DNA of 64,000 nucleotides from Niveispirillum irakense DSM 11586 (GTDB lineage: Bacteria > Pseudomonadota > Alphaproteobacteria > Azospirillales > Azospirillaceae): positions 1 through 64,000 of the forward strand of contig NZ_KE386933.1 of the NCBI RefSeq assembly GCF_000429645.1, read 5' to 3'. Position 1 is the first letter of the stretch, and each line of letters starts with the position of its first letter. The position numbers and the translations under genes are program-made. Under the pieces are notes generated by a model. The model ran no database searches. It was given only the letters and a program-made list of their open reading frames with translations, and was not told the origin of the DNA. Positions 4,686 through 44,421 of this stretch are shown piece after piece.

Positions 4686-6758
4686 ATGTCCCGGTCCCAC
4701 CCCATCGAACGCTATCGGAATATCGGCATTGCCGCGCATGTTGATGCCGGCAAAACGACGACGACTGAGCGCGTCCTCTTTTATACGGGGCGGTCCTATC
4801 GCATTGGCGAGGTCGATAACGGCACCGCCACGATGGACTGGATGGAACAGGAACGGGAACGGGGCATCACCATCACCTCAGCGGCGACGACCTGCTTCTG
4901 GAAGGACCACCGGATCAACATCATCGACACGCCGGGCCATGTCGACTTCATGATTGAGGTCGAACGGAGCTTTCGCGTGCTGGATGGTGCGGTGGCGATT
5001 TTCGATGCCGTGTCGGGTGTGGAGCCGCAGTCGGAGACGGTCTGGCGGCAGGCGGACAAGTACCGCGTGCCGCGCATCTGTTTCATCAACAAGATGGACA
5101 GAACCGGGGCTGACTTTTTCCGCACCGTGGGCATGATCCGGGAGCGCCTTGGCGCCCACCCGGCCATGCTTCAGTTGCCGCTGGGTGTTGAGCAGGACTT
5201 TATCGGCGTCATCGACCTGATCGCCTTCAAGGCGGTCATCTGGGACGATGACATGCTGGGTGCCCGTTTCCGCACCGTGGATATCCCTGCTGATCGGCTC
5301 GAAGAGGCGAAGGCGCATCGCGCCCGGCTCGTTGAACTGGCGGTGGAGATGGATGAGGCGGCGACCGATGCCTATCTCCAGGGCGATGAGCCCGACGAGG
5401 AAGGTTTGCGGCGCCTGATCCGCAAGGGAACCATCGCGCAGCGTCTGGTTCCCGTCCTGTGCGGGTCCGCTTTCAAGAACAAGGGCGTTCAGCCGATGCT
5501 GGATGCCGTCGTCGATTATCTGCCGTCTCCGGCAGATGTCGCCGATGTTCAGGCCGTTGCGCTGGATGGGGCCGTTGTGACCTGTCCGGCGACTGATACG
5601 GCGCCGTTCGCGGCGCTGGCGTTCAAGGTGATGAATGATCCGGTTGCCGGCTCACTCACCTTTGCGCGCATCTATTCCGGGATGCTTCGCCAGGGGGCCA
5701 AAGTGGCCAATCCGGGCAAGCGCGGGGAAGAAGAGATCGGTCGCATGCTGTTGATGCATGCCAACAGCCGGGAAGAAATCGCTGAGGCTTTTGCCGGTGA
5801 TATCGTCGCTTTCGCTTCGCTGGAAGCGACAAGCACCGGTGACACGCTGTGTGACCCCGCCCATCCGCTCCTGCTGGAGCGGATGGAGTTCCCCGAGCCG
5901 GTGATCGAGGTTGTGGTTGAGCCCCATACAGAGGCCGACCATGACCGGATGGCGGTGGCACTCGGTCGCCTGGCGGCCGAGGACCCTTCTTTCCGTGTCG
6001 GTCGTGATCCGGAAAGCGGGCAGGCGGTGCTGCGCGGTATGGGCGAGCTTCATCTGGAGATCATCGTCGATCGCATGCGCCGGGAATTCCGGGTGGATGC
6101 GGCGGTGGGGCGTCCCCAGGTCGCCTATCGCGAGAGGGTGACGCAGCGGGCGGAAGCCGATTTCATCCATAAGCGGCAGGCTGGTGCGCTCGGGCATTAT
6201 GCCCGTGTCAGGCTGGCGGTTGAACCGGGTGTGCCCGGTTCCGGTCTGGTGTTTGAGAACAAGGTCGCGGGTGACCATCTGCCGAAGGAATTCGTGCCAG
6301 GTGTTCGATCCGGGATCGAAGCGGTGGTTGCTTCCGGTGTCGTGGCGGGTTTTCCCGTTGTCGATCTCCGGGTCGAACTGCTGGATGGTGCTTTCCATGA
6401 TGTGGACAGTTCCGTCCTGGCGTTCGAAACGGCGGCCCGCGGGGCTCTGCGGGAGGCGCTGGCGAAGGCGCGGCCCGTCCTGCTGGAGCCGGTGATGAAG
6501 GTTGAGGTGGTGACGCCGGATGATTATCTGGGCGACATCATCGGTGACCTGAACAGCCGTCGTGGTCAGGTGGCCGGGATCGATCAGCGGGGCAATGCCC
6601 AGGTCATCGGCGCTTCGGTGCCGTTGGCGACGATGTTCGGCTATGTGAATACGCTCCGGTCCATGAGCAAGGGCCGGGCGCAATATACGATGCAGTTTGA
6701 ACGTTACGAGCAGGCGCCGCAGGCGATCGCCGAGGGCATCCGTGCCAAGGTGGCTTGA
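4686..6758 (+). CDS. fusA: Elongation factor G, str-operon copy (EFG I type, divergent domain IV loop)
   Basis: A 690-aa translocase GTPase with an intact G domain: AHVDAGKT (18-25), the classical EFG I switch I/II region ([21 protein letters not shown]), NKMD and GSAFKN; domain III has GMGELHLEI. In the domain IV tip loop, E. coli KQSGGRGQ becomes RQAGALGH (residues 497-504): Ser, the second Gly and the last Gln are all replaced. HDVDSS (571-576) is kept. Codon use is unlike its ribosomal neighbours: the first ~150 codons hold about nine CGG, one AGA and no CGT for Arg. A second EF-G gene lies at 26727. It is probably functional but may be a minor or specialised EF-G. Confidence 0.93.
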
Positions 6759-26726: not shown

Positions 26727-28868
26727 ATGCCCCGCACTACCCCGCTTTCTGATATTCGGAATATCGGCATCATCGCCCACGTCGATGCCGGCAAGACGAC
26801 CACGACTGAGCGCATCCTTTACTATACCGGTCGTAAGCACACGATCATCGACGTTCATGATACCAAGGATCTGAAGACGTCGACGACGACCGACTATATG
26901 GAGCAGGAACAGAAGCGCGGCATCACGATCCAGTCGGCGGCCGTTTCCTGCTTCTGGAAGGGCAAGAAGATCAACGTCATCGACACCCCGGGCCACGTGG
27001 ACTTCACCATTGAGGTGAACCGTAGCTTGCGCGTGCTCGACGGCGCGGTCGTGGTGTTTGACGGTGTGGCCGGCGTTGAGCCGCAGACCGAGACCAACTG
27101 GCGCCTCGCGGACAACTACAAAGTGCCGCGCATGTGCTATGTCAACAAGATGGACCGCTCGGGCGCCAACTTCCGCCGCACGGTGAAGATGGTCGTTGAC
27201 CGTCTGGGCTCCCGCCCCATCTGCTTGCAGATGCCGATCGGTTCGGAAGATGACTTCCACGGCATCGTCGACCTTGTTGAGATGAAGGCTTATGTCTGGT
27301 TCTCCGAGGAGAAGGACAGCAAGTGGGAAATCTGGGACGTTACGGATGATCTGGCTGACAAGCTGAAGATCACCAACGCCTATGACCGCGAGTTGCTGTC
27401 CCAGTACAAGCAGTATCGTCAGGATCTGGTCGAAGCCTGCGTGGAGCAGGACGACGCCGCCATGGAAGCCTATCTGGAAGGCACCGAGCCGGACGCCGAC
27501 AAGCTCCGCGAGTGCATCCGTAAGGCCACCCTGTCCGGCGCCTTCGTGCCGGTGCTGTGCGGTTCTTCGTACAAGAACAAGGGTGTGCAGCAGTTGCTGG
27601 ACGCTGTTGTGTGGTACCTGCCCGCTCCGACCGACGTGGAAGCCATCAAGACGGTGGATCCCGATGGTAACCCGAACGGCGAGCGTATCTGCTCCGATGA
27701 AGAGCCGTTCTCGGGTCTTGCCTTCAAGGTGCTGAACGACAAGTACGGTTCGCTGACTTTCGTGCGCGTCTATTCGGGCGTTGTCACCAAGGGCACCCAG
27801 CTGCTGAACACCACCCGTGGCAAGCGCGAGCGTATCGGCCGTATCGTGGAAATGTTCGCCAAGGACACCAACGATCTGGAAGAATGCCGCGCCGGTGACA
27901 TCGTTGCCTTCGTGTCGCTGGCTGAAACCGATACCGGTGATACGCTGTGCGATGCCACCGCCCCGGTGGTGCTGGAGCGTATGCGTTTCCCCGAGCCCGT
28001 GATCTCCGTCTCCATCGAGCCGAAGAACCGTGGCGACCAGGACAAGTTCGGCGCCGCCATCGGCAAGATGGTCCGCGCGGATCCGTCCCTGCGTCTGGAA
28101 ACCGATCGCGAAACCGGTCAGACCCTGCTGCGCGGCATGGGCGAACTGCACCTGGAAGTGACCCTGGACCGTGTCCGCACCGAATATGGTGTGGAAGGCG
28201 TCATGGGCCGTCCGCAGGTGGCTTATCGCGAGTCGATCACCCGTCCGGTCACGCACATCTATACCCACAAGAAGCAGACCGGCGGTTCGGGCCAGTTCGC
28301 TGAAGTGAAGATCATTTTCGAGCCGAAGGAACGCGGTGAGGGTTACGAGTTCGTCGACCAGGTGGTCGGCGGTACCGTGCCGCGCGAATACATCCCCTCG
28401 GTCGATAAGGGCCTGCAGATGCAGAAGGAAGACGGTGTCATCGCCGGCTATCCGACTGTGGACTTCAAGGCCACCCTGATCGACGGTAAGTACCACGACG
28501 TCGACTCGAACGCCCTGACGTTCGAAATCGCCGCCAAGGCCTGCTTCCGCGAAGCCATGAAGCTGGCCGGTCCGGTTCTGCTGGAACCGATCATGAAGGT
28601 CGAAGTGGTGGTTCCGGAAGATTATCTGGGTGACGTGATCGGTGACGTGAACCGTCGTCGTGGCACGATCCTGGGTCAGCTGGAGCGTGGCAACAACATC
28701 GCCGTTGAAGCCCATGTGCCGCTGTCCGACATGTTTGGCTATATCGGCCAGCTGCGCGGCATGACCTCCGGTCGCGGTTCGTTCACGATGGAATTCTCGC
28801 ACTATGATCCGGTGCCGAGGAACGTCGCTGACGAAATCGTTGCCAAGCAGGGCAAGAACAACGGCTGA
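26727..28868 (+). CDS. fusA: Elongation factor G, second copy (spirochaete/mitochondrial-like subtype)
   Basis: A 713-aa EF-G with all GTPase motifs ([26 protein letters not shown]). It differs from the str copy in switch I, which has the longer [19 protein letters not shown] and then GITIQSAA where EFG I has GITITSAA; the IQSAA form is typical of mitochondrial EF-G1 and spirochaete-type spdEFG1. The domain IV loop is canonical ([11 protein letters not shown], 28266-28298). Arg codons are nearly all CGC/CGT, indicating high expression. It stands alone with its own promoter and terminators. It is probably the main or a co-equal EF-G; TetM-like identity is unlikely. Confidence 0.93.
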
Positions 28869-34532: not shown

Positions 34533-35345
34533 TCAGCCGGCGGCCAACGGTTCATACCAGTCAGATGGCAGCCCTGCCAATTCGCGCGACAGGCCATTGA
34601 AGGGGCGCTTCAACTCCCCCTTGAAATGGGTGCGCACCAATTGCTGCCACCAGGGGCCGGCATCCTGGCCCAGGCAGCGGGCGGCCTGTTCAAACCAGCG
34701 GCGGCCGGCGGCCACATGCCCCACCTCTTCCGCCAGGATGATCTCCAGCACGGCCACACTGTCCAGGTCGCCGGCCTTGGTCAGGCTGTCGATGATGGCC
34801 GGCGTCACGTCCAGCCCGCGCGCCTCCAGCACCATCGGCACCACGGCCAGCCGGGCCGGCAGGTCGTGCGCCGTCGCCTCGCTGGCCTGCCACAAGCCGT
34901 CATGGGCCGGCAAATCGCCATAGGCAGCGCCGAAATGGGCCAGCCGCTCGGCGACCAGCGCATGGTGCTTGGCCTCCTCATCCGCCACGCGCACCCAATC
35001 ATCGTAAAAGGCACGCGGCGGGGTGGTGCCATCGGGCAGGGCGCGGAAGCGGGCCACGATATCCCAGGCCAGATCAATGGCGTTCAGCTCAATATGGGCG
35101 ATGGCGTGTAAAAGCGCGATACGGTTGGCAATGCTCTGCCCCTTGCCGCGCTTGGGCATATCCTTGGGATGGCGCAGTTCCGGATGGGCGGGGCGCGCGG
35201 GCCGGTTGGGCGGGCTGCCCTGGCCGATTTCGCTGATCCGTCCCTCGCGCCAGTCGGCGGCGAAGGCGCGGGACAGGCGCACCTTGTCGGCAGCCTCCGG
35301 GGTGGTCAGCACCGCGATGGCGGCGTCGGCAAGGGTAATCATCAT
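34533..35345 (-). CDS. Ferritin-like DUF455-domain protein
   Basis: A 270-aa protein with ELRHPKDMPKRGKG and a four-helix core bearing candidate metal ligands: HAIAHIELNAIDLAWD, DEEAKHH and EEVGHVAAG. These fit the ferritin-like DUF455 family (HIE, EExxHH, EExGH), probably a carboxylate-bridged di-metal site, with no characterised reaction that I can name. It begins 36 nt after sufA on the same strand, suggesting a link to iron or Fe-S metabolism. Confidence 0.8.
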   Translation of the reverse strand: MMITLADAAIAVLTTPEAADKVRLSRAFAADWREGRISEIGQGSPPNRPARPAHPELRHPKDMPKRGKGQSIANRIALLHAIAHIELNAIDLAWDIVARFRALPDGTTPPRAFYDDWVRVADEEAKHHALVAERLAHFGAAYGDLPAHDGLWQASEATAHDLPARLAVVPMVLEARGLDVTPAIIDSLTKAGDLDSVAVLEIILAEEVGHVAAGRRWFEQAARCLGQDAGPWWQQLVRTHFKGELKRPFNGLSRELAGLPSDWYEPLAAG

Positions 35346-35381: not shown

Positions 35382-35726
35382 TTATACCATGAAGCTCTCG
35401 CCACAGCCGCAGCGGGCTTTCTCGTTCGGGTTCTTGAAGGTGAAGCCGGACTGGAACTTGTCCTCGGCATAATCCATTTCCGACCCGATGAGAAACATGG
35501 TGGCGGCGGGGTCGATCAGGATGGTCACACCCTTATCCTCCACCACCTCCTCGAACAGCTTCTTTTCCTCGGCATATTCGACAAAATAGCTCATGCCCGA
35601 ACAGCCGCGCGCCTTCACGCCCACGCGCAGGCCGATAATCGGCTTGTCGGAACGGCTCATCAGTTCCTTCACCCGCTCGGCGGCGGCGTCGGTGATGGTC
35701 ATTGCCTTGGGCAGGGGACGGGCCAT
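35382..35726 (-). CDS. sufA: A-type Fe-S carrier SufA
   Basis: A 114-aa A-type carrier that receives clusters from SufBCD and passes them to apoproteins. The three ligand cysteines are present: Cys42 in ARGCSGM and Cys106/Cys108 in CGCGESF. It lies 17 nt downstream of sufT in the suf operon. Whether it acts as SufA or ErpA cannot be told from sequence; position favours SufA. Confidence 0.92.
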   Translation of the reverse strand: MARPLPKAMTITDAAAERVKELMSRSDKPIIGLRVGVKARGCSGMSYFVEYAEEKKLFEEVVEDKGVTILIDPAATMFLIGSEMDYAEDKFQSGFTFKNPNEKARCGCGESFMV

Positions 35727-35743: not shown

Positions 35744-36133
35744 TCAAAACATGTTCAACGCAATGCGGGCTTCGTCGCTCATGCGGCTGGGGTCCCAGGC
35801 GGGTTCCCAGACCAGATCGACGCGGGCATTGCGCACGCCATCAACGGCCTGCACCACCTGTTGCACTTGGCCCGGCATTTCGCCGGCCACCGGGCAGGCG
35901 GGGGCGGTGAGCGTCATTTCGATCTCAACATCGCCTTCGCCATCCACATCACAGCGATAGATCAGGCCCAGTTCATAGATATTCACCGGAATCTCCGGGT
36001 CATAGACCGTGCGCAGGGCTTCCACCACGCGGTCGGCCAGCGGCGCGTCGGCGGGCAGTTTTTCATCTTCCGGCACTTCTGCCGGGGCACCCATGAAAAC
36101 GCCAGGGGCGATGGGGCGGGGATTGCTGCTCAT
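35744..36133 (-). CDS. sufT: MIP18-family SUF protein SufT
   Basis: A 129-aa DUF59/MIP18 protein with the SufT signature DPEIPVNIYELGLIY (about residues 45-59) and the single conserved Cys in TAPACPVAGEMP. Homologues assist Fe-S maturation when demand is high. It has a ~35-residue N-terminal extension. It sits between sufU and sufA, 14 nt after sufU. Confidence 0.88.
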   Translation of the reverse strand: MSSNPRPIAPGVFMGAPAEVPEDEKLPADAPLADRVVEALRTVYDPEIPVNIYELGLIYRCDVDGEGDVEIEMTLTAPACPVAGEMPGQVQQVVQAVDGVRNARVDLVWEPAWDPSRMSDEARIALNMF

Positions 36134-36147
36134 CTTCTTCGTCCCCC

Positions 36148-36630
36148 TTAGAAGGCGGAATTTTCAGTGGAGGTGACAGGGTCGCCATGCAGGGCGGCCT
36201 TCATCGTGTGCCAGGCCAGCGTGGCGCATTTCACCCGCATGGGGAATTCGCGCACGCCCGACAGCACGGCCAGCTTGTCGGTCGCATCCTCGTCCAGATT
36301 TTCATGGACGCCCTGTTCATCATCATCCTTGGTGCAGACATCATGGAAATACTCAAACAGGGCTTCGGCCTCTGCCGCCGGCTTGCCACGCAGGATTTCC
36401 GTCATCAAACTGGCGCTGGCCTGGCTGATGGCGCAGCCCCGCCCGTCAAAGCGCAGATCCTGGATGATGCCGTTCCCATCCACGGTCAGATAGACATTGA
36501 TCTTGTCGCCGCACATCGGGTTATCGCCGCGCGCGGTGCGGTTATAGCTCTCCGGCTTGCCGAAGTTCCGCGGGTTCTTGCCGTGGTCCAGGATCACTTC
36601 CTGGTAAAGGTCGCGCAATTCATCAAACAT
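36148..36630 (-). CDS. sufU: SufU-type zinc-dependent sulfurtransferase
   Basis: A 160-aa SufU. Zinc/sulfur ligands Cys40, Asp42 (NPMCGDK), Cys66 (GRGCAIS) and Cys135 (RVKCATLAW) are all present, as is the SufU-specific insertion between helices that IscU lacks. SufU takes persulfide from SufS. An acidic stretch (KDDDEQGVHENLDEDAT, about 101-117) is longer than usual. It starts 11 nt after the sufS stop. Confidence 0.92.
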   Translation of the reverse strand: MFDELRDLYQEVILDHGKNPRNFGKPESYNRTARGDNPMCGDKINVYLTVDGNGIIQDLRFDGRGCAISQASASLMTEILRGKPAAEAEALFEYFHDVCTKDDDEQGVHENLDEDATDKLAVLSGVREFPMRVKCATLAWHTMKAALHGDPVTSTENSAF

Positions 36631-36641
36631 GGGGGAAGCCC

Positions 36642-37922
36642 TTACCCAAAAAAGCTTTTTGTCGCCAACACCGCATCCACCAGTGCATCCACCTCCGCCT
36701 CCGTATTATAGGCAGCGAAGCTGGCACGGGCGGTGGCACCCACGCCGAACCGGTCCATCAGCGGTTCGGCGCAATGGCGGCCCACCCGCACCGCCACGCC
36801 CCGGCTGTCCAGCAGCGTGCCGATATCGTGGGGATGAATGCCATCCATGGTGAAGCTGATGATGGCGGCCTTGTCCGGCGCGGTGCCGATGATGCGCACG
36901 CCCTCAATCTCCGACAGCCGGCCGGTGGCATAGGCCAGCAACCTTTGTTCATGGGCGTGGATGGCATCCATGCCCAGGGCCGTCACATAATCGATGGCCG
37001 CGCCCAGGCCGATCCCTTCCACGATAGCCGGCGTCCCCGCCTCAAACCGATAGGGGGCCTCGCGGTAGGTGGTGTGGGCGAAACTGACGGTGGAGATCAT
37101 GTCGCCGCCACCCTGCCAGGGCGGCATGGCGTTCAGATGCTCCATCTTGCCATACAGCACGCCGATGCCGGTGGGGCCGTACAGTTTGTGCCCGGTGAAG
37201 ACATAGAAATCGGCATCAAGGGCCTGCACATCCACCGGCTGATGCACGGCGGCCTGGCTGCCATCAAACGCCACCGGAATGCCCTTGGCATGGGCCAGTT
37301 GGGCGATACGCTTGGCCGGGTTCACCGTGCCCAGCACATTGCTGGCATGGGTGATGGATACCAGCTTTACATTGTCGGTCAGCAACTGGGCATAGGCCGC
37401 CATATCCAGCGACCCGTTATCCAGGACCGGCACCACCTTGATTTCAATGCCGATCTGGTCGCGCAGCAACTGCCAGGGCACGATATTGGCGTGATGTTCC
37501 ATCCAGGAAATCACCACCGCATCGCCGGCCTTCAGGAACCGCCGGCCCCAGCTCTGGGCCAGCAGGTTGAACGCCTCCGTGGCGTTGCGGGTGAAGACGA
37601 TATTCTCCCGGCTGGGCGCGTTCAGGAAGGCGGCCACCTTGTCGCGCGTGCCCTCATACAGGTCAGTCGAGCGCTGGGAGAGGAAATGCACGCCACGATG
37701 CACATTGGCGTAATCGTTCTCCAGCAGGTGCGACATGGCGTCGATCACCTGGCGCGGCTTCTGAGCCGAGGCACCATTATCCAGATAGACCAGCTTCTTG
37801 CCGGGCCGGCCTTTGCGTTCATGCACCAGCCGGGTCAGAATCGGGAAATCCTGGCGCACACGCTCCACATCATAGGGCGCATTGCCAAGGCTGGCGGGGG
37901 AAAGGGTGGCGGTATCGCTCAT
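36642..37922 (-). CDS. sufS: Cysteine desulfurase SufS
   Basis: A 426-aa group II PLP-dependent desulfurase (cysteine to alanine plus persulfide). The PLP Lys is Lys246 in FTGHKLYGPTG; the catalytic Cys384 lies in RVGRHCAEP on the short lobe typical of SufS. EHHAN is the PLP-stacking His. Its start overlaps the preceding GNAT gene by 4 nt, and sufU follows, so transfer to SufU is expected. Confidence 0.95.
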   Translation of the reverse strand: MSDTATLSPASLGNAPYDVERVRQDFPILTRLVHERKGRPGKKLVYLDNGASAQKPRQVIDAMSHLLENDYANVHRGVHFLSQRSTDLYEGTRDKVAAFLNAPSRENIVFTRNATEAFNLLAQSWGRRFLKAGDAVVISWMEHHANIVPWQLLRDQIGIEIKVVPVLDNGSLDMAAYAQLLTDNVKLVSITHASNVLGTVNPAKRIAQLAHAKGIPVAFDGSQAAVHQPVDVQALDADFYVFTGHKLYGPTGIGVLYGKMEHLNAMPPWQGGGDMISTVSFAHTTYREAPYRFEAGTPAIVEGIGLGAAIDYVTALGMDAIHAHEQRLLAYATGRLSEIEGVRIIGTAPDKAAIISFTMDGIHPHDIGTLLDSRGVAVRVGRHCAEPLMDRFGVGATARASFAAYNTEAEVDALVDAVLATKSFFG

Positions 37923-38824
37923 AGTGTCGTCCCCAGGGGCCGGCGCAGCCAGTAACGGCCATGGCCCAACAGATAATCTTCAATATGCAGCGCAGGCACG
38001 TAGCCCTGGGCCTGGAAGAAGCCCGGATGCTGGAATGTCATCGGGCAGGCGGTGGCCCAGCGACAGCCGGCCTCTGCCGCCGTTGCTTCCGCTGCGGCCA
38101 GCAGCCGGCGGCCCAGACCCCGGCGGCGCTGGGCCGGTTCCACCCAGCAATCAACCAGGGTGAAATAGCCATTGTCGACGACGCCCATCACACCGCCCAG
38201 CGGGGCACCCGTCGCGTCGCGGGCCATCACCGTCAGTTCGGTGTAAAGCCGGTCAATATGCAGCAGCCAATGGGCATCCAGCCCTTCCTCCACCAGCCGC
38301 ACATCCTCAGGTGCCGGTGGGGCGGAAACCTCCAGCCGCAGGCCCGGCGGCATGTCGGGGGCGGGGGCCTTCTCGGCCAGCGGCTCTTTGCGGAAATACA
38401 GCCGGTCATGCCCGCCGGTGAAATCCGCCATCACGCCCATGGGCACATAGCCCAGGCGCGGATAGAAATCCGGGGCCTGGAACCGCATGGTGTTCACCAG
38501 GGCGCGGGTGCAGCCGCGCTTGGCGGCCAGCGCCTCGCCCGTGCGCATCAAGGTGGCGGCCAGCCCGTGGCGGCGCCAGGGCGCATCCACCCACAGCATA
38601 TGCAGATAGGCATCCTGCCCGCGCAGCCAGCAGACCAGCCCGGCCACGATGCGCCCGGCTTCGTCCTTGATGAACAGGCCCGCATCCTCCCGCCCCACGC
38701 CCAGGGCCGCGCGCTCGGCTGCCGACACCCGGTCGTGCAGCCAGCGCAGCGCCGACATATCCGCCGGATGGCGGATTTCCAGCACCAGATCGGCCAGGGA
38801 GGTGGGGTGGGCGGCGGCGTTCAT
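37919..38824 (-). CDS. Tandem-GNAT N-acetyltransferase embedded in the suf operon
   Basis: A 301-aa protein with two GNAT domains. Domain 1 (about 35-145) has acetyl-CoA loop RRHGLA and ALVNTMRFQAPDFYPRLGY; domain 2 (about 175-290) has RRRGLGRR and ACPMTFQHPGFFQAQGY. Both acetyl-CoA loops look competent. It overlaps sufD by 1 nt upstream and sufS by 4 nt downstream, so it is translated with the SUF machinery. Domain 1 is clearly related to domain 2 of the other tandem-GNAT gene at 40174. Acetyl acceptor unknown. Confidence 0.85.
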   Translation of the reverse strand: MNAAAHPTSLADLVLEIRHPADMSALRWLHDRVSAAERAALGVGREDAGLFIKDEAGRIVAGLVCWLRGQDAYLHMLWVDAPWRRHGLAATLMRTGEALAAKRGCTRALVNTMRFQAPDFYPRLGYVPMGVMADFTGGHDRLYFRKEPLAEKAPAPDMPPGLRLEVSAPPAPEDVRLVEEGLDAHWLLHIDRLYTELTVMARDATGAPLGGVMGVVDNGYFTLVDCWVEPAQRRRGLGRRLLAAAEATAAEAGCRWATACPMTFQHPGFFQAQGYVPALHIEDYLLGHGRYWLRRPLGTTL

Positions 38825-40170
38825 CAGGCGCGTTCCGTCCCCATCCAGGCTGCGGCAGCGGCGCGGAAATAGGCGCGGACCTGTTCGTCGATGATCTCGT
38901 CCATCGCTTCATCCAGGAAGGCACCGATCAGCATCACGCGCGCCACATCGCGCGGCACGCCACGGGCCCGCAGATAGAACATCTGGTCCTCGTCCAGTTC
39001 GCCCGCCGTGGCACCGTGGCTGCACTTCACATCATCGGCATAGATTTCCAGTTCCGGCTTGCTGTTGATTTCCGACGTTTCGGAGAGCAACAGGGCGCGG
39101 TTCAACTGATAACCGTCGGTCTTCTGCGCATCGGGGCGGACGATGATCTTACCCTGGAAGACGCCGCGCGCCTTGCCGTCGATCACGCCCTTCACCACCT
39201 CGCGGCTGGTGCAATTGGGCATGGCATGGTCGATCAGGGTGGTGATGTCGCTCACCTGATCGCCGCCAATGGCATAGGCACCGGACACCCGCGCCTCAAT
39301 CTTCTCACCGCCCAGCACCTGCCGCGCCTCGTGCCGGGCCAGACGCGCGCCCAGGTTCAGCACGAACGTGTCATAGGTGCTGGCATCGGCCAGATGGGTG
39401 TTCAGCGTGGCAATGTGGAAGGCATCGGTGCCTTCACGCTGGATCTTGTAATGGTGCAGCCGCGCACCCGTACCCACCGCCACATCAGCGGCGATGTTGG
39501 ACAGGTACGCCGCGCCCGGCTGGCCGGCATGATGTTCCACGATGGTGGCTTCCGCCCCATCTTCCACCAGCACCACCAGACGCGGATGCCAAGCGGCGGC
39601 CACACCCGCCGGGGCCAGGAACACCAGTTCCACCGGCTGTTCCAGCTTCACGCCCGCCGGCACATGCAGCAGCGCGCCATCGGCCAGGAAGGCGGCATTC
39701 AGCGACCGCATTGGGTGGTCGGCACCGGGGAAGCGGGCCAGCAACCCTTCCATCCGGTCGGCCAGCCCCTGCGGGTCAGCTGCCATCTGCGCCGATAGCG
39801 CATCCAGCAGCACGCCATCGGGCAGGCCCTGGGTACGCGACAGGTCAGCCCGGAACTGCCCACCGATGAAGACCAGACGCGGCCCCGCCGCTTCCAGGGC
39901 TGTGGGAATGGCATCCACCGGCACGGACCGGGCATCCGGGGCGGGCGACAGGGACAGCTTGTCCAGCCCGCGCAGGTTGGTGAATTTCCACGCCTCGTTC
40001 CGGGTGGTGGGCAGGCCCGCCTTGGCGAAACGCTCCATTCCCTCCGCCCGGAAGCAGGCCAGCCAGGGATGCGCCACCGGGGCCAGGGCAGGCTGGGCCT
40101 GCTTCACCTGTTCGATGAAGGAAGCGCTCGTGCCCTGGGCGCTATGGGTCGGGGTCAGTTCGCCACTCAT
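38824..40170 (-). CDS. sufD: Fe-S assembly scaffold subunit SufD
   Basis: A 448-aa beta-helix scaffold partner of SufB and SufC. The C-terminal SufBD core runs about residues 165-400 (FVLNLGARLARHEARQVLGGEK, GKIIVRPDAQKTDGYQLNRALLLS, VKCSHGATAGELDEDQMFYLRARG). The conserved Cys and His of VKCSHGAT are intact. It is flanked on both sides by tandem-GNAT genes (3 nt and -1 nt). Confidence 0.94.
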   Translation of the reverse strand: MSGELTPTHSAQGTSASFIEQVKQAQPALAPVAHPWLACFRAEGMERFAKAGLPTTRNEAWKFTNLRGLDKLSLSPAPDARSVPVDAIPTALEAAGPRLVFIGGQFRADLSRTQGLPDGVLLDALSAQMAADPQGLADRMEGLLARFPGADHPMRSLNAAFLADGALLHVPAGVKLEQPVELVFLAPAGVAAAWHPRLVVLVEDGAEATIVEHHAGQPGAAYLSNIAADVAVGTGARLHHYKIQREGTDAFHIATLNTHLADASTYDTFVLNLGARLARHEARQVLGGEKIEARVSGAYAIGGDQVSDITTLIDHAMPNCTSREVVKGVIDGKARGVFQGKIIVRPDAQKTDGYQLNRALLLSETSEINSKPELEIYADDVKCSHGATAGELDEDQMFYLRARGVPRDVARVMLIGAFLDEAMDEIIDEQVRAYFRAAAAAWMGTERA

Positions 40171-40173
40171 CTC

Positions 40174-41058
40174 TCAAAGCCGCATTTCATAGAAGTTCAT
40201 GCCCATGCCCGGCACCGGGCTCGCCACATAGGCGAAGCGCTGGAAACCGTGCTTCGGATAGAATTTGGGGGCCTGGCAATCCATCGTTTCCACCCCCGCC
40301 CGCGTGCAGCCCATGGCCCGGCCTTCATCCAGCGCGCGGGCCAGCATGTCGAATCCGACACCCGTGCCGCGCAGCCGATCATCCAGCCAGACCATATCGA
40401 CCATATAGTCACCCTGGGTGGCATAGCAGAGCGCACCGCCCAGCACGGCATGGGTTGCCCGGTCGCGCACCAGCGCTGCCACCAGGGTCAGCGGCTGGGC
40501 CAGCATCAGCCGGCGCCGCCGGTCCGTCACGGCCCAGGCATCCCGGCCCAACTGGCGCGACGGCGGTGCGTGCAGGGCGACGGAAAGCCCCTCCGCGCTG
40601 GGCGGGCTGTCCGGGTAGATCACCGGCTTTTCCATCACGGTGAAGGGGCGGCCATTGACATGCCCATCCACCTGCTGGCGCACCGTGAAACCATAGGCGC
40701 GGTAGGGTGCCGTATCATCATGGGCGCGGATGTAGAATTCCATCCGCACCATGTTGCGCCGCGCCAGTTCCTGTTCCGCCAGCCCCAGCAGCACACCCAC
40801 GGCCCCCGGATGGTCCACCGCATCGGGCAGGGACCAGACACCCCAGAAACAATAGGCCGTGTCGCCCCAGCCGATCAGCGTCATGCCGGCGGCGGGGGCA
40901 CCTGTTTCGGGATCACCAATCACCAGCATAAAACGGTTGTGACTGGGCGGCAGACGGGCCGTGTTATAGGCCATCAGGCCGGCAATCACCGGTTCGGCCT
41001 CCGGGCTGGAGGCCGTGATATCCCGTTCCAGGCTGATATAGGTGTCGGGGGCGGCCAT
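40174..41058 (-). CDS. Second tandem-GNAT-like acetyltransferase of the suf operon
   Basis: A 294-aa protein with two GNAT-like halves. The C-terminal half has a plausible acetyl-CoA loop (RGTGVG) and VETMDCQAPKFYPKHGF, close to domain 1 of the 37919 protein. In the N-terminal half the loop is degenerate (DAVDHPGAVG) though HDDTAPYRAYGF keeps the fold signature, so it may be structural. The ATG at 41058 lies 16 nt after sufC and the stop is 3 nt before sufD. Substrate unknown. Confidence 0.8.
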   Translation of the reverse strand: MAAPDTYISLERDITASSPEAEPVIAGLMAYNTARLPPSHNRFMLVIGDPETGAPAAGMTLIGWGDTAYCFWGVWSLPDAVDHPGAVGVLLGLAEQELARRNMVRMEFYIRAHDDTAPYRAYGFTVRQQVDGHVNGRPFTVMEKPVIYPDSPPSAEGLSVALHAPPSRQLGRDAWAVTDRRRRLMLAQPLTLVAALVRDRATHAVLGGALCYATQGDYMVDMVWLDDRLRGTGVGFDMLARALDEGRAMGCTRAGVETMDCQAPKFYPKHGFQRFAYVASPVPGMGMNFYEMRL

Positions 41059-41074: not shown

Positions 41075-41836
41075 TCAGGCTGCCGCGTCGCTGATGCCGA
41101 ACTCGGCATAGCCCTTGGCTTCCAGCTCCAGCGCCAGTTCCTTGCCGCCGGTCTTCTGGATGCGGCCATTGGCCAGCACATGCACCACGTCGGGCACGAT
41201 GTAATCCAGCAGGCGCTGATAATGGGTGATGACCAGCATCCCGCGTTCCGGCCCGCGCAGCTTGTTCACGCCCTCAGCCACGATCTTCAGCGCGTCAATA
41301 TCCAGGCCGCTGTCGGTTTCATCCAGAATCGCGAGCTTCGGCTGAAGCACGGCCATCTGCAGCGCCTCGTTGCGCTTCTTCTCCCCGCCGGAGAAGCCGA
41401 CATTGACGGCGCGCTTGATCATCTCGTCAGTCATGGAGAGATCCTTGGCCTTGGCCCGGATCAGCTTCAGGAACTGCATGGCATCCAGCGGGGATTCGCC
41501 GCGCGTCTTGCGGATGGCGTTCAGCGCTTCCTTCAGGAAGGTGGCATTGGTGACGCCGGGGATTTCCACCGGATACTGGAAGGCCAGGAACAGGCCGGCG
41601 GCGGCACGTTCTTCCACTTCCAGGGCCAGCAGATCCTGGCCGTCGAACGTGACGCTGCCTTCGGTGATCTCATAGCCTTCGCGACCGGCCAGCACATAGG
41701 ACAGCGTGCTTTTGCCCGCCCCGTTGGGCCCCATGATGGCATGGACCTCACCGGCCTTGATGGTCAGATCAACCCCCTTGAGGATCGCCTTGCCATCGAC
41801 CGAGGCATGAAGATTCTTGATTTCGATCAGGGACAT
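41075..41836 (-). CDS. sufC: Fe-S assembly ATPase SufC
   Basis: A 253-aa ABC-type ATPase that drives SufBCD. Walker A is GPNGAGKST (about residues 35-43), the signature is GFSGGEKKR, and Walker B is AILDETDSGLD. The ATG at 41836 is used because GGAG lies 7 nt upstream and the family begins MSLIEIKNLHA. It is separated from sufB by about 610 nt containing a GIY-YIG gene and an inverted repeat, unusual for sufBC. Confidence 0.95.
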   Translation of the reverse strand: MSLIEIKNLHASVDGKAILKGVDLTIKAGEVHAIMGPNGAGKSTLSYVLAGREGYEITEGSVTFDGQDLLALEVEERAAAGLFLAFQYPVEIPGVTNATFLKEALNAIRKTRGESPLDAMQFLKLIRAKAKDLSMTDEMIKRAVNVGFSGGEKKRNEALQMAVLQPKLAILDETDSGLDIDALKIVAEGVNKLRGPERGMLVITHYQRLLDYIVPDVVHVLANGRIQKTGGKELALELEAKGYAEFGISDAAA

Positions 41837-41933: not shown

Positions 41934-42218
41934 TCATAGCAAGGTCGAACTCAGATCATTCCAGTCAGGATTGGATGCTTCAATCAGGTTGATCTTCCAC
42001 TGTCTGTTCCATTTCTTGAGCTGTTTATCCCGAAAGATCGCATCATCGATCCGATCAAACAGCTCGTAATAGACCAGCATTTTCACGTCGTACTGCTTGG
42101 TGAAACCATCAACCAGACCGTCCCGGTGTTCCCATATCCGCCTGCCGATATCGCTGGTCACGCCTATGTAAAGGGTACCCAGCTTTTGACTGGCGAGGAT
42201 GTAAACGTAACCGGTCAT
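41934..42218 (-). CDS. GIY-YIG nuclease-domain protein inside the suf operon
   Basis: A 94-aa single-domain GIY-YIG protein: GYVYILAS at the start, LYIGVTSDIGRRIWEH, then KMLVYYELF and FRDKQLKKWNRQWK. Tyr, Arg and the late helix fit small stand-alone members of the UvrC-N/YhbQ type. ATG at 42218 follows AAGGAG by 5 nt; ATG at 42221 is an alternative. It lies between sufC and sufB, next to a perfect 30-bp inverted repeat, and looks inserted there. Activity is uncertain. Confidence 0.85.
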   Translation of the reverse strand: MTGYVYILASQKLGTLYIGVTSDIGRRIWEHRDGLVDGFTKQYDVKMLVYYELFDRIDDAIFRDKQLKKWNRQWKINLIEASNPDWNDLSSTLL

Positions 42219-42285
42219 CACTCCTTATCCGTTCATTCGACCTTCAAATCCGTTTGCCTGGTTCGCACGACCATCGCCTCCCTTC

Positions 42286-42449: not shown

Positions 42450-43931
42450 TCACCCCACACTCCCCTCCAGACTGATCGCCACCAGCTTCTGCGCCTCCAC
42501 GGCGAATTCCATCGGCAGTTCCTTCAGCACTTCCTTGCAGAAGCCATTCACGATCAGCCCGACCGCATCCTCTTCCTTCAGGCCGCGCTGGCGGCAATAG
42601 AAAAGCTGGTCTTCGGAAATCTTGGCCGTCGTCGCTTCATGCTCCACCCGCGCCGTGCGGTTCTTGCTTTCAATGTAGGGCACGGTATGCGCCCCGCATT
42701 TGTCACCGATCAGCAGGCTGTCGCACTGGGTGAAGTTGCGGGCGTTCTGGGCCTTGGGCAGAATGCGGACCAGGCCGCGATAGGTGTTCTGCGCCTTGCC
42801 GGCCGAAATCCCCTTGGAGATGATCGTGGACCGGGTGTTCTTCCCGATATGGATCATCTTCGTGCCGGTATCGGCCTGCTGCATATTGTTGGTGATGGCG
42901 ACGGAGTAGAACTCGCCCACCGAATTATCGCCCTGCAGAATGCAGCTCGGGTACTTCCAGGTGATGGCCGACCCGGTTTCCACCTGGGTCCAGCTCACCT
43001 TGCTGTTCTTGCCCCGGCAGGCGGCGCGCTTGGTGACGAAATTATAGATCCCGCCCTTGCCATTCTCGTCGCCCGGATACCAGTTCTGCACCGTGCTGTA
43101 CTTGATGGTGGCGTCATCCAGCGCCACCAGTTCCACCACGGCGGCGTGCAACTGGTTCTCGTCCCGCTGCGGGGCGGTGCAGCCCTCCAGGTAGGAGACG
43201 TAGGAACCTTCGTCAGCAATGATCAGCGTGCGTTCGAACTGCCCCGTATTCTTCGCATTGATGCGGAAATAGGTCGACAGTTCCATCGGGCTGCGCACGC
43301 CCTTGGGGATATAGACGAAGCTGCCATCGGTGAAGACGGCGCAGTTCAGCGTGGCGAAGTAATTATCCGAATAGGGCACAACCGACCCCAGATACTGGCG
43401 CACCAGTTCCGGATGGTTCTGCACAGCCTCAGAGATGGAACAGAAGATGATGCCCTTCTCTTCCAGCTTCTTCTTGAAGGTGGTGGCCACCGACACCGAA
43501 TCGAACACGGCATCCACAGCGATGGAGGGGCTGTCGCCAGCGCCTTCGACACCGGCCAGGATGGCCTGTTCCTTCAGCGGGATGCCCAGCTTCTCATAGG
43601 TCTTCAACAACTCAGGATCGACCTCATCCAGCGATTTCGGGCCGGGCGTCGTCTTGGGTGCTGAGTAGTAATAGCTGTCCTGATAATCGATGGGCGGATA
43701 GTGCAGCTTGGCCCAATCCGGCTCTTCCATCGTCAGCCAGTGGCGATAGGCCTTCAGCCGCCATTCCAGCAGCCATTCAGGCTCCCCCTTCTTGGCGGAG
43801 ATGAAGCGAATGACGTCTTCATTCAGGCCCTTGGGCGCGGTTTCCGCCTCAATATCCGTGAAGAAGCCGTACTTATACTTCGCTTCCGCCAGATTGCGGA
43901 CCTGTTCGATGGTCTGTTCGGTGGCGGCCAT
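42450..43931 (-). CDS. sufB: Fe-S assembly scaffold subunit SufB
   Basis: SufB (493 aa), the main cluster-building subunit of Suf[58 protein letters not shown] and [42 protein letters not shown] are standard. The Cys equivalent to E. coli Cys405 falls in the DKCGAH region. It follows the Rrf2 regulator by 34 nt. Confidence 0.96.
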
Positions 43932-43965: not shown

Positions 43966-44421
43966 TCAACCAGCCAGCGCCGCCGGCGGGGCCGGGGCGT
44001 GGATGAAGTCAATCGTGGACGGTGCGGCCATGTCGGCCAGCGTCACATCCTGAAGCGCGCGGCGGACCGCGCTGTTCACCTTGTCCCACGCACTCTTGCG
44101 GGCGCAGAGGCTGAGCACCCCGCACGACCCGCTGCCGCCATCCACGCAATCGGTCAAGGCGATCGGACCCTCGATCGCCTCGATGATATGCACCACATTG
44201 ATGGCGGTGGGGGCCTTGGCCAGCGTATAGCCGCCCGTGGCCCCGCGATGGGATTGCAGAAGGTCGCCGCGTGCCAGCAGCTTCAACAGCTTCTGGACCG
44301 TCGGCATCGGCAAACCCGTGCGGTCGGCCAGCGAGGTGGCGGTATGCAGCGCGCCATCGGCATGCGCCAGCGTGGCCAGGACGACCACGGCATAATCCGT
44401 CATTTTGCTGAGCCTCAGCAT
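43966..44421 (-). CDS. Rrf2-family SUF regulator (IscR-like)
   Basis: A 151-aa Rrf2 regulator that likely senses Fe-S status and controls this operon. The winged HTH (LADRTGLPMPTVQKLLKLLARGDLLQSHRGATGGYTLAK) spans about residues 31-69. Cluster-ligand cysteines are Cys92, Cys100 and Cys106. It resembles the SUF-system regulator family found in Xanthomonas and Alphaproteobacteria. A dyad overlaps its own promoter. Confidence 0.9.
   Translation of the reverse strand: MLRLSKMTDYAVVVLATLAHADGALHTATSLADRTGLPMPTVQKLLKLLARGDLLQSHRGATGGYTLAKAPTAINVVHIIEAIEGPIALTDCVDGGSGSCGVLSLCARKSAWDKVNSAVRRALQDVTLADMAAPSTIDFIHAPAPPAALAG

Follow-up and report, generated by a model that had tools for sequence, protein, structure and literature searches.

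Two tandem-GNAT genes on either side of sufD in the SUF operon of Niveispirillum irakense and its close relatives

In the present study, two genes for putative tandem-GNAT acetyltransferases, designated ACT1 and ACT2, were found inside the SUF operon for iron-sulfur (Fe-S) assembly of Niveispirillum irakense DSM 11586, in a window comprising the first 64,000 nucleotides (nt) of contig NZ_KE386933.1. Herein, we propose, with a probability of roughly 40%, that ACT1 and ACT2 may be acetyltransferases dedicated to this SUF system, which would modify or gate SufBCD/SufS. The genetic association of the pair with the SUF operon is well supported; the substrate and the mechanism are what we infer by analogy, and the functional link to SUF has been strengthened but not proven. 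The SUF system is well studied, and we know of no acetyltransferase dedicated to it.

First, the two genes are embedded among the core SUF genes. The operon lies on the minus strand in the order sufR-sufB-(GIY-YIG)-sufC-ACT1-sufD-ACT2-sufS-sufU-sufT-sufA (Table 1), and the neighbouring sufB, sufC, sufD and sufS each score above the equivalog or subfamily cut-offs of NCBIfam. The junction spacings are +16 nt from sufC to ACT1, +3 nt from ACT1 to sufD, -1 nt from sufD to ACT2 and -4 nt from ACT2 to sufS. An earlier note on this sequence had described two genes at these positions and with these spacings, and the description was confirmed, both frames being open. A consensus scan found 5 terminator-like sites compared with 4.2 expected, which is no excess, and one minus-strand site (40872-40855) falls within ACT1. 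The sufB-C-D-S order is common to other Alphaproteobacteria, including Caulobacter (PMC11475020) and Rhodobacter (PMC6956336), and the available portions of these operon accounts name no acetyltransferase. The earlier note had also stated that GNATs are outside known SUF systems; in agreement, no description of a SUF operon with a GNAT or other acetyltransferase was found in a literature search that included part of PMC3751524 and left most subscription journals outside it. The novelty lies in tandem GNATs being built into the SUF operon of one bacterial subgroup, with hints of repeated GNAT recruitment to SUF.

Second, ACT1 and ACT2 are tandem-GNAT paralogues. Both belong to the GNAT superfamily, with PF00583 scores (28.7 bits for ACT1 and 83.7 bits for ACT2) above the cut-off of 20.7. 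Pfam alone shows two GNAT stretches in ACT2 and only the C-terminal one in ACT1, and the two GNAT-like halves per gene that had been claimed previously were recovered by profile comparisons and AlphaFold2 models. In half-to-half profile comparisons, ACT1-C/ACT2-N, ACT2-C/ACT2-N and ACT1-C/ACT2-C were related with probabilities of 99.6%, 99.4% and 99.1%, respectively; ACT1-N matched ACT2-N with a probability of 96.3% (E 1.5e-9) and ACT2-C with 93.9%, and its relation to ACT1-C was weak (45.4%, E 2e-4). The four halves formed four separate clades in a GNAT-domain tree, with support of 0.99-1.0. Two GNAT-type domains, each with its own sheet, were predicted for ACT1 (mean predicted local distance difference test score 90.2, predicted template modelling score 0.86) and for ACT2 (90.5 and 0.85), and the Foldseek and VIA-align matches of these models were GNATs, consistent with a GNAT fold in both proteins.

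The catalytic equipment of the halves differs. Motif A, which binds coenzyme A (CoA), was scored as [Q/R]-x-x-G-x-[G/A] following the definition in the available part of PMC12219266, in alignments of 13 ACT1 and 12 ACT2 sequences. The N-terminal half of ACT1 (approximately residues 1-150) has no motif A (0/13), and its C-terminal half (approximately 158-294) contains motif A (RGTGVG in the window; 11/13) and a conserved tyrosine (13/13). The N-terminal half of ACT2 (approximately 10-150) contains motif A (RRHGLA; 11/12) and Tyr121 (12/12), and in its C-terminal half (approximately 158-301) motif A is present (10/12) with phenylalanine or leucine replacing the tyrosine (0/12). The tyrosine column of ACT1-N aligns poorly, and nothing was drawn from it. 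This tyrosine is commonly the general acid in GNATs, according to the part of PMC4964394 that was available, and the corresponding part of PMC12219266 describes one active half, on the N or C side, as usual in double-GNAT enzymes. Because of the pattern of motif A and tyrosine in each half, ACT1 looks C-active and ACT2 looks N-active, so that the equipped halves would be opposite.

The same pattern bears on a different reading, in which these half-degenerate double GNATs are non-catalytic adaptors or acetyl-CoA sensors that bind SUF proteins together with CoA or acetyl-CoA as assembly factors or gates. In every sequence, catalytic features have been lost from one half of each ACT protein, the genes flank sufD, and an interaction role is suited by their rapid divergence, which accompanies that of SufD, the fastest-evolving among SufB/C/D/S. 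However, the retention of the tyrosine in all equipped halves and of motif A in most of them is hard to explain without catalysis, and one inactive half is normal in active double-GNAT enzymes, as far as the accessible portion of PMC12219266 goes. We regard an adaptor or sensor role as very improbable.

Two fused GNAT domains, one of them catalytically equipped according to profiles, motif table and models, place ACT1 and ACT2 beside mycothiol synthase, the clavulanic-acid tandem GNAT (2WPW/2WPX), VipF, Eis, HisAT/NAT16 and NMT, which likewise have two fused GNAT folds (PMC12219266, available in part). Unlike these enzymes, the ACT proteins are encoded in one operon and differ from each other in which half has been kept equipped. 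In Foldseek, 2wpw and VipF align over the whole ACT length in sequence order, and the full-length superposition was poor, both for ACT2 on 2wpw_B (E 3.7e-9, template modelling (TM) scores 0.35/0.32, root mean square deviation 23) and for ACT1 on VipF (E 1.8e-7, TM 0.29). Only the halves match, so that either their arrangement differs or the comparison is a non-rigid one. The closest solved relatives, by sequence and also by fold, are the single-domain GNATs 1Y9W of Bacillus cereus and 2G3A of Agrobacterium tumefaciens (profile against 1y9w: ACT2 E 1.5e-23, ACT1 E 3.5e-13; Foldseek fold similarity to 1y9w/2g3a, TMt 0.71-0.83), which differ from the two-domain ACT proteins and whose titles name no substrate. 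A literature search found no function for either structure, and to our knowledge neither has a link to SUF. Mycothiol synthase identity was rejected for both proteins: ACT2 reaches 16.8 bits against the TIGR03448 cut-off of 163.1, and ACT1 is unlisted at E <= 1.

In another explanation, ACT1 and ACT2 are small-molecule enzymes that feed or protect SufS and leave the SUF proteins unmodified. Their substrate at the desulfurase, to be N-acetylated, would be an amine or a metabolite of the cysteine type, such as cysteine itself, a cysteine that is damaged or S-modified, a persulfide, or an amine that is toxic. Small amines are substrates of many GNATs, and mycothiol synthase, itself a double GNAT, acetylates a cysteinyl amino group (PMC4964394, available in part). 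ACT2 directly precedes sufS, with a 4-nt overlap. Moreover, HAD-type hydrolase genes stand in the suf gaps of two lineages (L311:3908-4609 in genome G461, sufC-sufD gap; L235:2132-2848 in genome G255, sufD-sufS gap), which would fit metabolite chemistry. Despite these points, neither ACT protein reaches any substrate-specific NCBIfam cut-off, and fixed sites on both sides of sufD are not evidently needed by such an enzyme. This explanation appears rather unlikely to us.

Third, the pair is fixed in one lineage. Profile searches covered 82 genomes of the order, which belong to a single family; ACT1 was found at full length in 13 and ACT2 in 12, the thirteenth genome (G072) carrying an ACT2 fragment at a contig end. 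The carriers, a small set of bacteria from soil and water, are all 11 genomes of the window's genus (the Niveispirillum group) together with G054 and G055 from two sister genera, and the order sufC-ACT1-sufD-ACT2-sufS is kept in 12 of them, the two sides lying on separate contigs in G072. Since 13/82 genomes, including 11/11 of the genus, have the pair in the same gene order, its presence is more than chance, and the absence from close relatives that would have told against the earlier note was not seen within the genus. The same note had suggested that acetylation of a SUF component, of cysteine or a persulfide product, or of a client may take part in Fe-S assembly control in this lineage, and had called for a search for such suf operons across Rhodospirillales. 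Partial support was obtained: the link to a lineage held, in the genus and the two sister genera; a wide distribution was rejected, because 69/82 genomes of the order lack the pair, which is limited to one subgroup of one family. A scan of named genomes for ACT1, using two short patterns as query, returned 10 loci from the same group. Their titles name Niveispirillum, Aerophototrophica crusticola and Oleisolibacter albus, among others, and also Azospirillum, an 'Alpha proteobacterium' and a Rhodospirillaceae metagenome-assembled genome. In wider profile searches, with at most 6 candidates scored per genome, full-length ACT2 was found in only G000 (the window's genome), G068 and G069 among 385 genomes of the class, with 41 others partial (E <= 1e-15), and full-length ACT1 in only the window's genome among 398 genomes of the phylum, with 8 others partial. 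No full-length pair outside the group of carriers was found in these two sets.

Within the carriers, the junctions have been kept tight. Measured from best-guess starts, 43 of the 44 junctions (four in each of 11 genomes) range from -16 to +33 nt, the exception being +103 in G067. In the 11 operons compared, the genes flanking the operon are lost or inverted in relatives, with ACT1 and ACT2 staying, and the GIY-YIG insert is present in 5, with 57-78% identity to the window copy. For seven close pairs of genomes, the ratio of nonsynonymous to synonymous substitution rates (dN/dS, plain Nei-Gojobori) was 0.08-0.17 for ACT1, 0.08-0.25 for ACT2 and 0-0.18 for the suf genes; ACT1 and ACT2 are under purifying selection in close pairs. 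In a SufB/C/S tree, G076, a genome without either ACT gene, falls inside a group of 12 (ultrafast bootstrap 80; inner branch 73), and the idea of the carriers as a clean clade was rejected on this account. Both one gain with one loss and an unresolved branch fit this placement.

Fourth, other GNAT genes occupy the sufC-sufD or sufD-sufS gap in three further lineages, represented by G053, by G255 with its congener G350, and by G833; G255 and G833 are distant Alphaproteobacteria. In a family survey of 40 suf loci, consisting of 3 ACT carriers (G054, G066 and G067) and 37 others, 36 of the 37 non-carriers had no GNAT between suf genes. The remaining one, G053, has a single-domain GNAT in the sufD-sufS gap (143 bits to the ACT-half profile) that overlaps its neighbours by 4 nt on each side (-4/-4), and in G041 a GNAT lies 3' of sufA. 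In a survey of 158 further genomes of the class (99 + 59), two have a GNAT between sufB and sufS: in G255 it lies in the sufD-sufS gap (L235:2869-3462, -4 after sufD), alongside the HAD gene, and in G833 in the sufC-sufD gap (L264:6098-6583, spaced +5 from sufC and at least +67 from sufD). In G350, a congener of G255 that was read besides the 158 because it matched, the sufD-sufS gap holds the same GNAT as in G255. In addition, G067 (Aerophototrophica group) carries a third GNAT gene in the sufB-sufC gap (L142:9207-10046, 280 aa, PF00583 62.8 bits). In these neighbourhoods, GNATs were detected with ACT-half profiles, which may miss unrelated GNATs in short gaps. The single GNAT of G053 was weakened as a candidate ancestor of ACT2, since it groups beside ACT2-C with a support of only 0.29. 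The context of the single-domain relatives was dropped as a clue to function: in 4 of 5 Azospirillum loci, murA- and dcd-like frames, named by eye from the sequence, stand beside the GNAT, with no SUF link.

These gaps also bear on whether the pair could be a conserved hitchhiker, i.e. a GNAT pair that was inserted in an ancestor, is kept for a function unrelated to Fe-S assembly and benefits only from suf regulation. Among 56 frames in suf gaps longer than 230 nt, 30 were put through Pfam; for the others, which were ACT genes, GIY-YIG frames and frames that are short or overlap, the assignment came from BLAST, a profile or inspection by eye. The suf gaps accept unrelated genes of the GIY-YIG, DUF29, tautomerase, HAD, glyoxalase and Yip1 types, a Yip1-type pair filling the sufD-sufS gap in loci L240 and L241, and family-less frames are inserted in the sufC-sufD or sufD-sufS gaps of G316 and G405. 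The sufB-sufC gap is a general insertion place: of the 33 gaps exceeding 230 nt among the first 140 loci, 20 lie there. Several further Azospirillaceae, as well as some genomes of the class, have GIY-YIG-like frames at this position. GNATs are common, with 37 PF00583 matches in the window's genome, and G076 lost or never had the pair, both consistent with a hitchhiker. However, all 13 carriers have the pair in the same two gaps, and no relocated copy was seen among the matches listed for the 82 order genomes (E <= 0.001). Moreover, counting each lineage once, GNATs make up 4 of the 11 genes inserted in the sufC-sufD and sufD-sufS gaps, as independent events, with a binomial P of 1e-6, 1.5e-5 or 2e-4 for an assumed background of 0.75%, 1.5% or 3%, a post hoc calculation on small numbers. 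We consider a hitchhiker unlikely. An extension to the class, in which alphaproteobacterial SUF systems would repeatedly and independently have acquired GNATs as a layer of control, recruited beside sufD and coupling Fe-S assembly to acetyl-CoA supply, with a paired device of paralogues with opposite active halves flanking SufD in the Niveispirillum group, is distinctly improbable at present.

The proposal of dedicated SUF acetyltransferases takes its precedent from RibT of Bacillus subtilis, a GNAT encoded in the riboflavin (rib) operon that acts on the riboflavin synthase complex, binds RibH and RibE and has been proposed to acetylate RibH K29, shifting or loosening capsid assembly (PMC9048828, available in part). 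Like RibT, the ACT genes encode GNATs inside an operon of the cofactor-biosynthesis type; RibT is a single terminal gene in that account, whereas ACT1 and ACT2 are two double-domain paralogues interleaved with core Fe-S genes and known here from sequence. By analogy with RibT, the site of action would be SufC/SufD for ACT1 and SufD/SufS for ACT2, with acetyl-CoA as the input. The equipped half would move an acetyl group from acetyl-CoA onto an amine that belongs to, or is held by, a partner encoded on the same message. The other half may dock the partner or, as other double-GNAT enzymes do, shape the pocket for the substrate. Such acetylation would alter how SufBCD/SufS assemble, couple ATPase activity or transfer sulfur, and Fe-S output would be tied to acetyl-CoA supply. 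The retention of both genes inside the operon, in the sufC-sufD and sufD-sufS gaps, in 13/13 carriers (in G072 over two contigs) argues for this proposal, as do the tight junctions, the purifying selection in close pairs, the turnover of neighbouring genes, the equipped half in each protein and the separate recruitment of GNATs to the same gaps elsewhere. A candidate for the modified residue, offered as a weak lead from sequence comparison, is SufD K50, which is present in 10/11 carriers compared with 2/29 others and is the only strong difference across SufB/C/D/S/U; SufA K28 follows, with 10/11 carriers compared with 3/27 others, both counts being uncorrected for relatedness.

Several observations weigh against a dedicated SUF function. 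The pair is confined to one subgroup, and the ACT genes are dispensable in the setting of G076, because this genome, nested with carriers, lacks both. ACT1 and ACT2 outpace the SUF core, with 54% identity between the window and G070 compared with 74% for SufD, 89% for SufS, 94% for SufC and 97% for SufB, and at larger distances, where the dN/dS method is least reliable, the apparent ratio rises to 0.49-0.54 for ACT1 and 0.54-0.73 for ACT2, with 0.33-0.43 for SufD. Deviations from the motif A consensus occur in two sequences of ACT1-C, one of ACT2-N and two of ACT2-C, and by sequence the nearest relatives are single-domain GNATs of a generic kind with no assigned function. Unrelated inserts share the sufC-sufD and sufD-sufS gaps, namely HAD (G461 and G255), glyoxalase (G268) and Yip1 with its partner (G103 and G234). 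Finally, a scan of 58 carrier-conserved lysines revealed none in the SUF proteins that is cleanly diagnostic of the clade, and lysines or other clade-diagnostic SUF residues were set aside as pointers to a target, being few and none decisive.

Table 1. Genes of the SUF operon in the window, listed from the first gene of the operon (bits and cut-offs from NCBIfam or Pfam models).
Feature	Coordinates	Strand	Evidence
SUF-type Rrf2 regulator (sufR/iscR-like), first gene of the operon	43966..44421	-	TIGR02944 140 bits, cut-off 110.65
sufB	42450..43931	-	TIGR01980 645.5 bits, cut-off 346.4
GIY-YIG domain open reading frame, sufB-sufC gap	41934..42221	-	PF01541 50.5 bits
sufC	41075..41836	-	TIGR01978 367.7 bits, cut-off 212.8
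ACT1, tandem GNAT, 294 aa	40174..41058	-	open frame; PF00583 at residues 198-272
sufD	38824..40170	-	TIGR01981 276 bits, cut-off 222
ACT2, tandem GNAT, 301 aa	37919..38824	-	open frame; PF00583 83.7 bits, two stretches
sufS cysteine desulfurase	36642..37922	-	TIGR01979 577.7 bits, cut-off 475.1
sufU	36148..36630	-	TIGR01994 146.3 bits, cut-off 92.5
sufT-type (SUF_assoc) gene	35744..36133	-	TIGR02945 152.2 bits, cut-off 143.4
A-type Fe-S carrier (sufA/iscA-like)	35382..35726	-	TIGR00049 120.9 bits, cut-off 58.8

The start of sufC was taken as 41836, the automatic frame start being 41851, and the GIY-YIG frame is probably a variable insert outside the module. Among NCBIfam models, the window SufS scores highest (611 bits) against that for family 2A encapsulin cargo desulfurases, whose cut-off of 800 is not reached. 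A DUF455 gene (34533-35345; PF04305, 321 bits) lies just 3' of the A-type carrier and is adjacent to suf in some relatives only. The window's genome also has a second suf operon (L210, G000:C13:32500-44500; read in addition to the class survey) with sufB-C-D-S-U-T and without GNATs in the order read, and G071 and G073 likewise have a second SufD above the cut-off. Elsewhere in the window, two EF-G-type genes (4686-6758 and 26727-28868; 690 and 713 aa) are both above the TIGR00484 cut-off.

If SUF is the target of ACT1 and ACT2, Fe-S assembly would be under the direct control of acetyl-CoA, a signal from central carbon metabolism, and the unrelated GNATs recurring in the same two gaps are independent natural replicates. 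If the two genes are instead hitchhikers, the pair would still show clearly that genes can be retained for long within an operon of the essential type.

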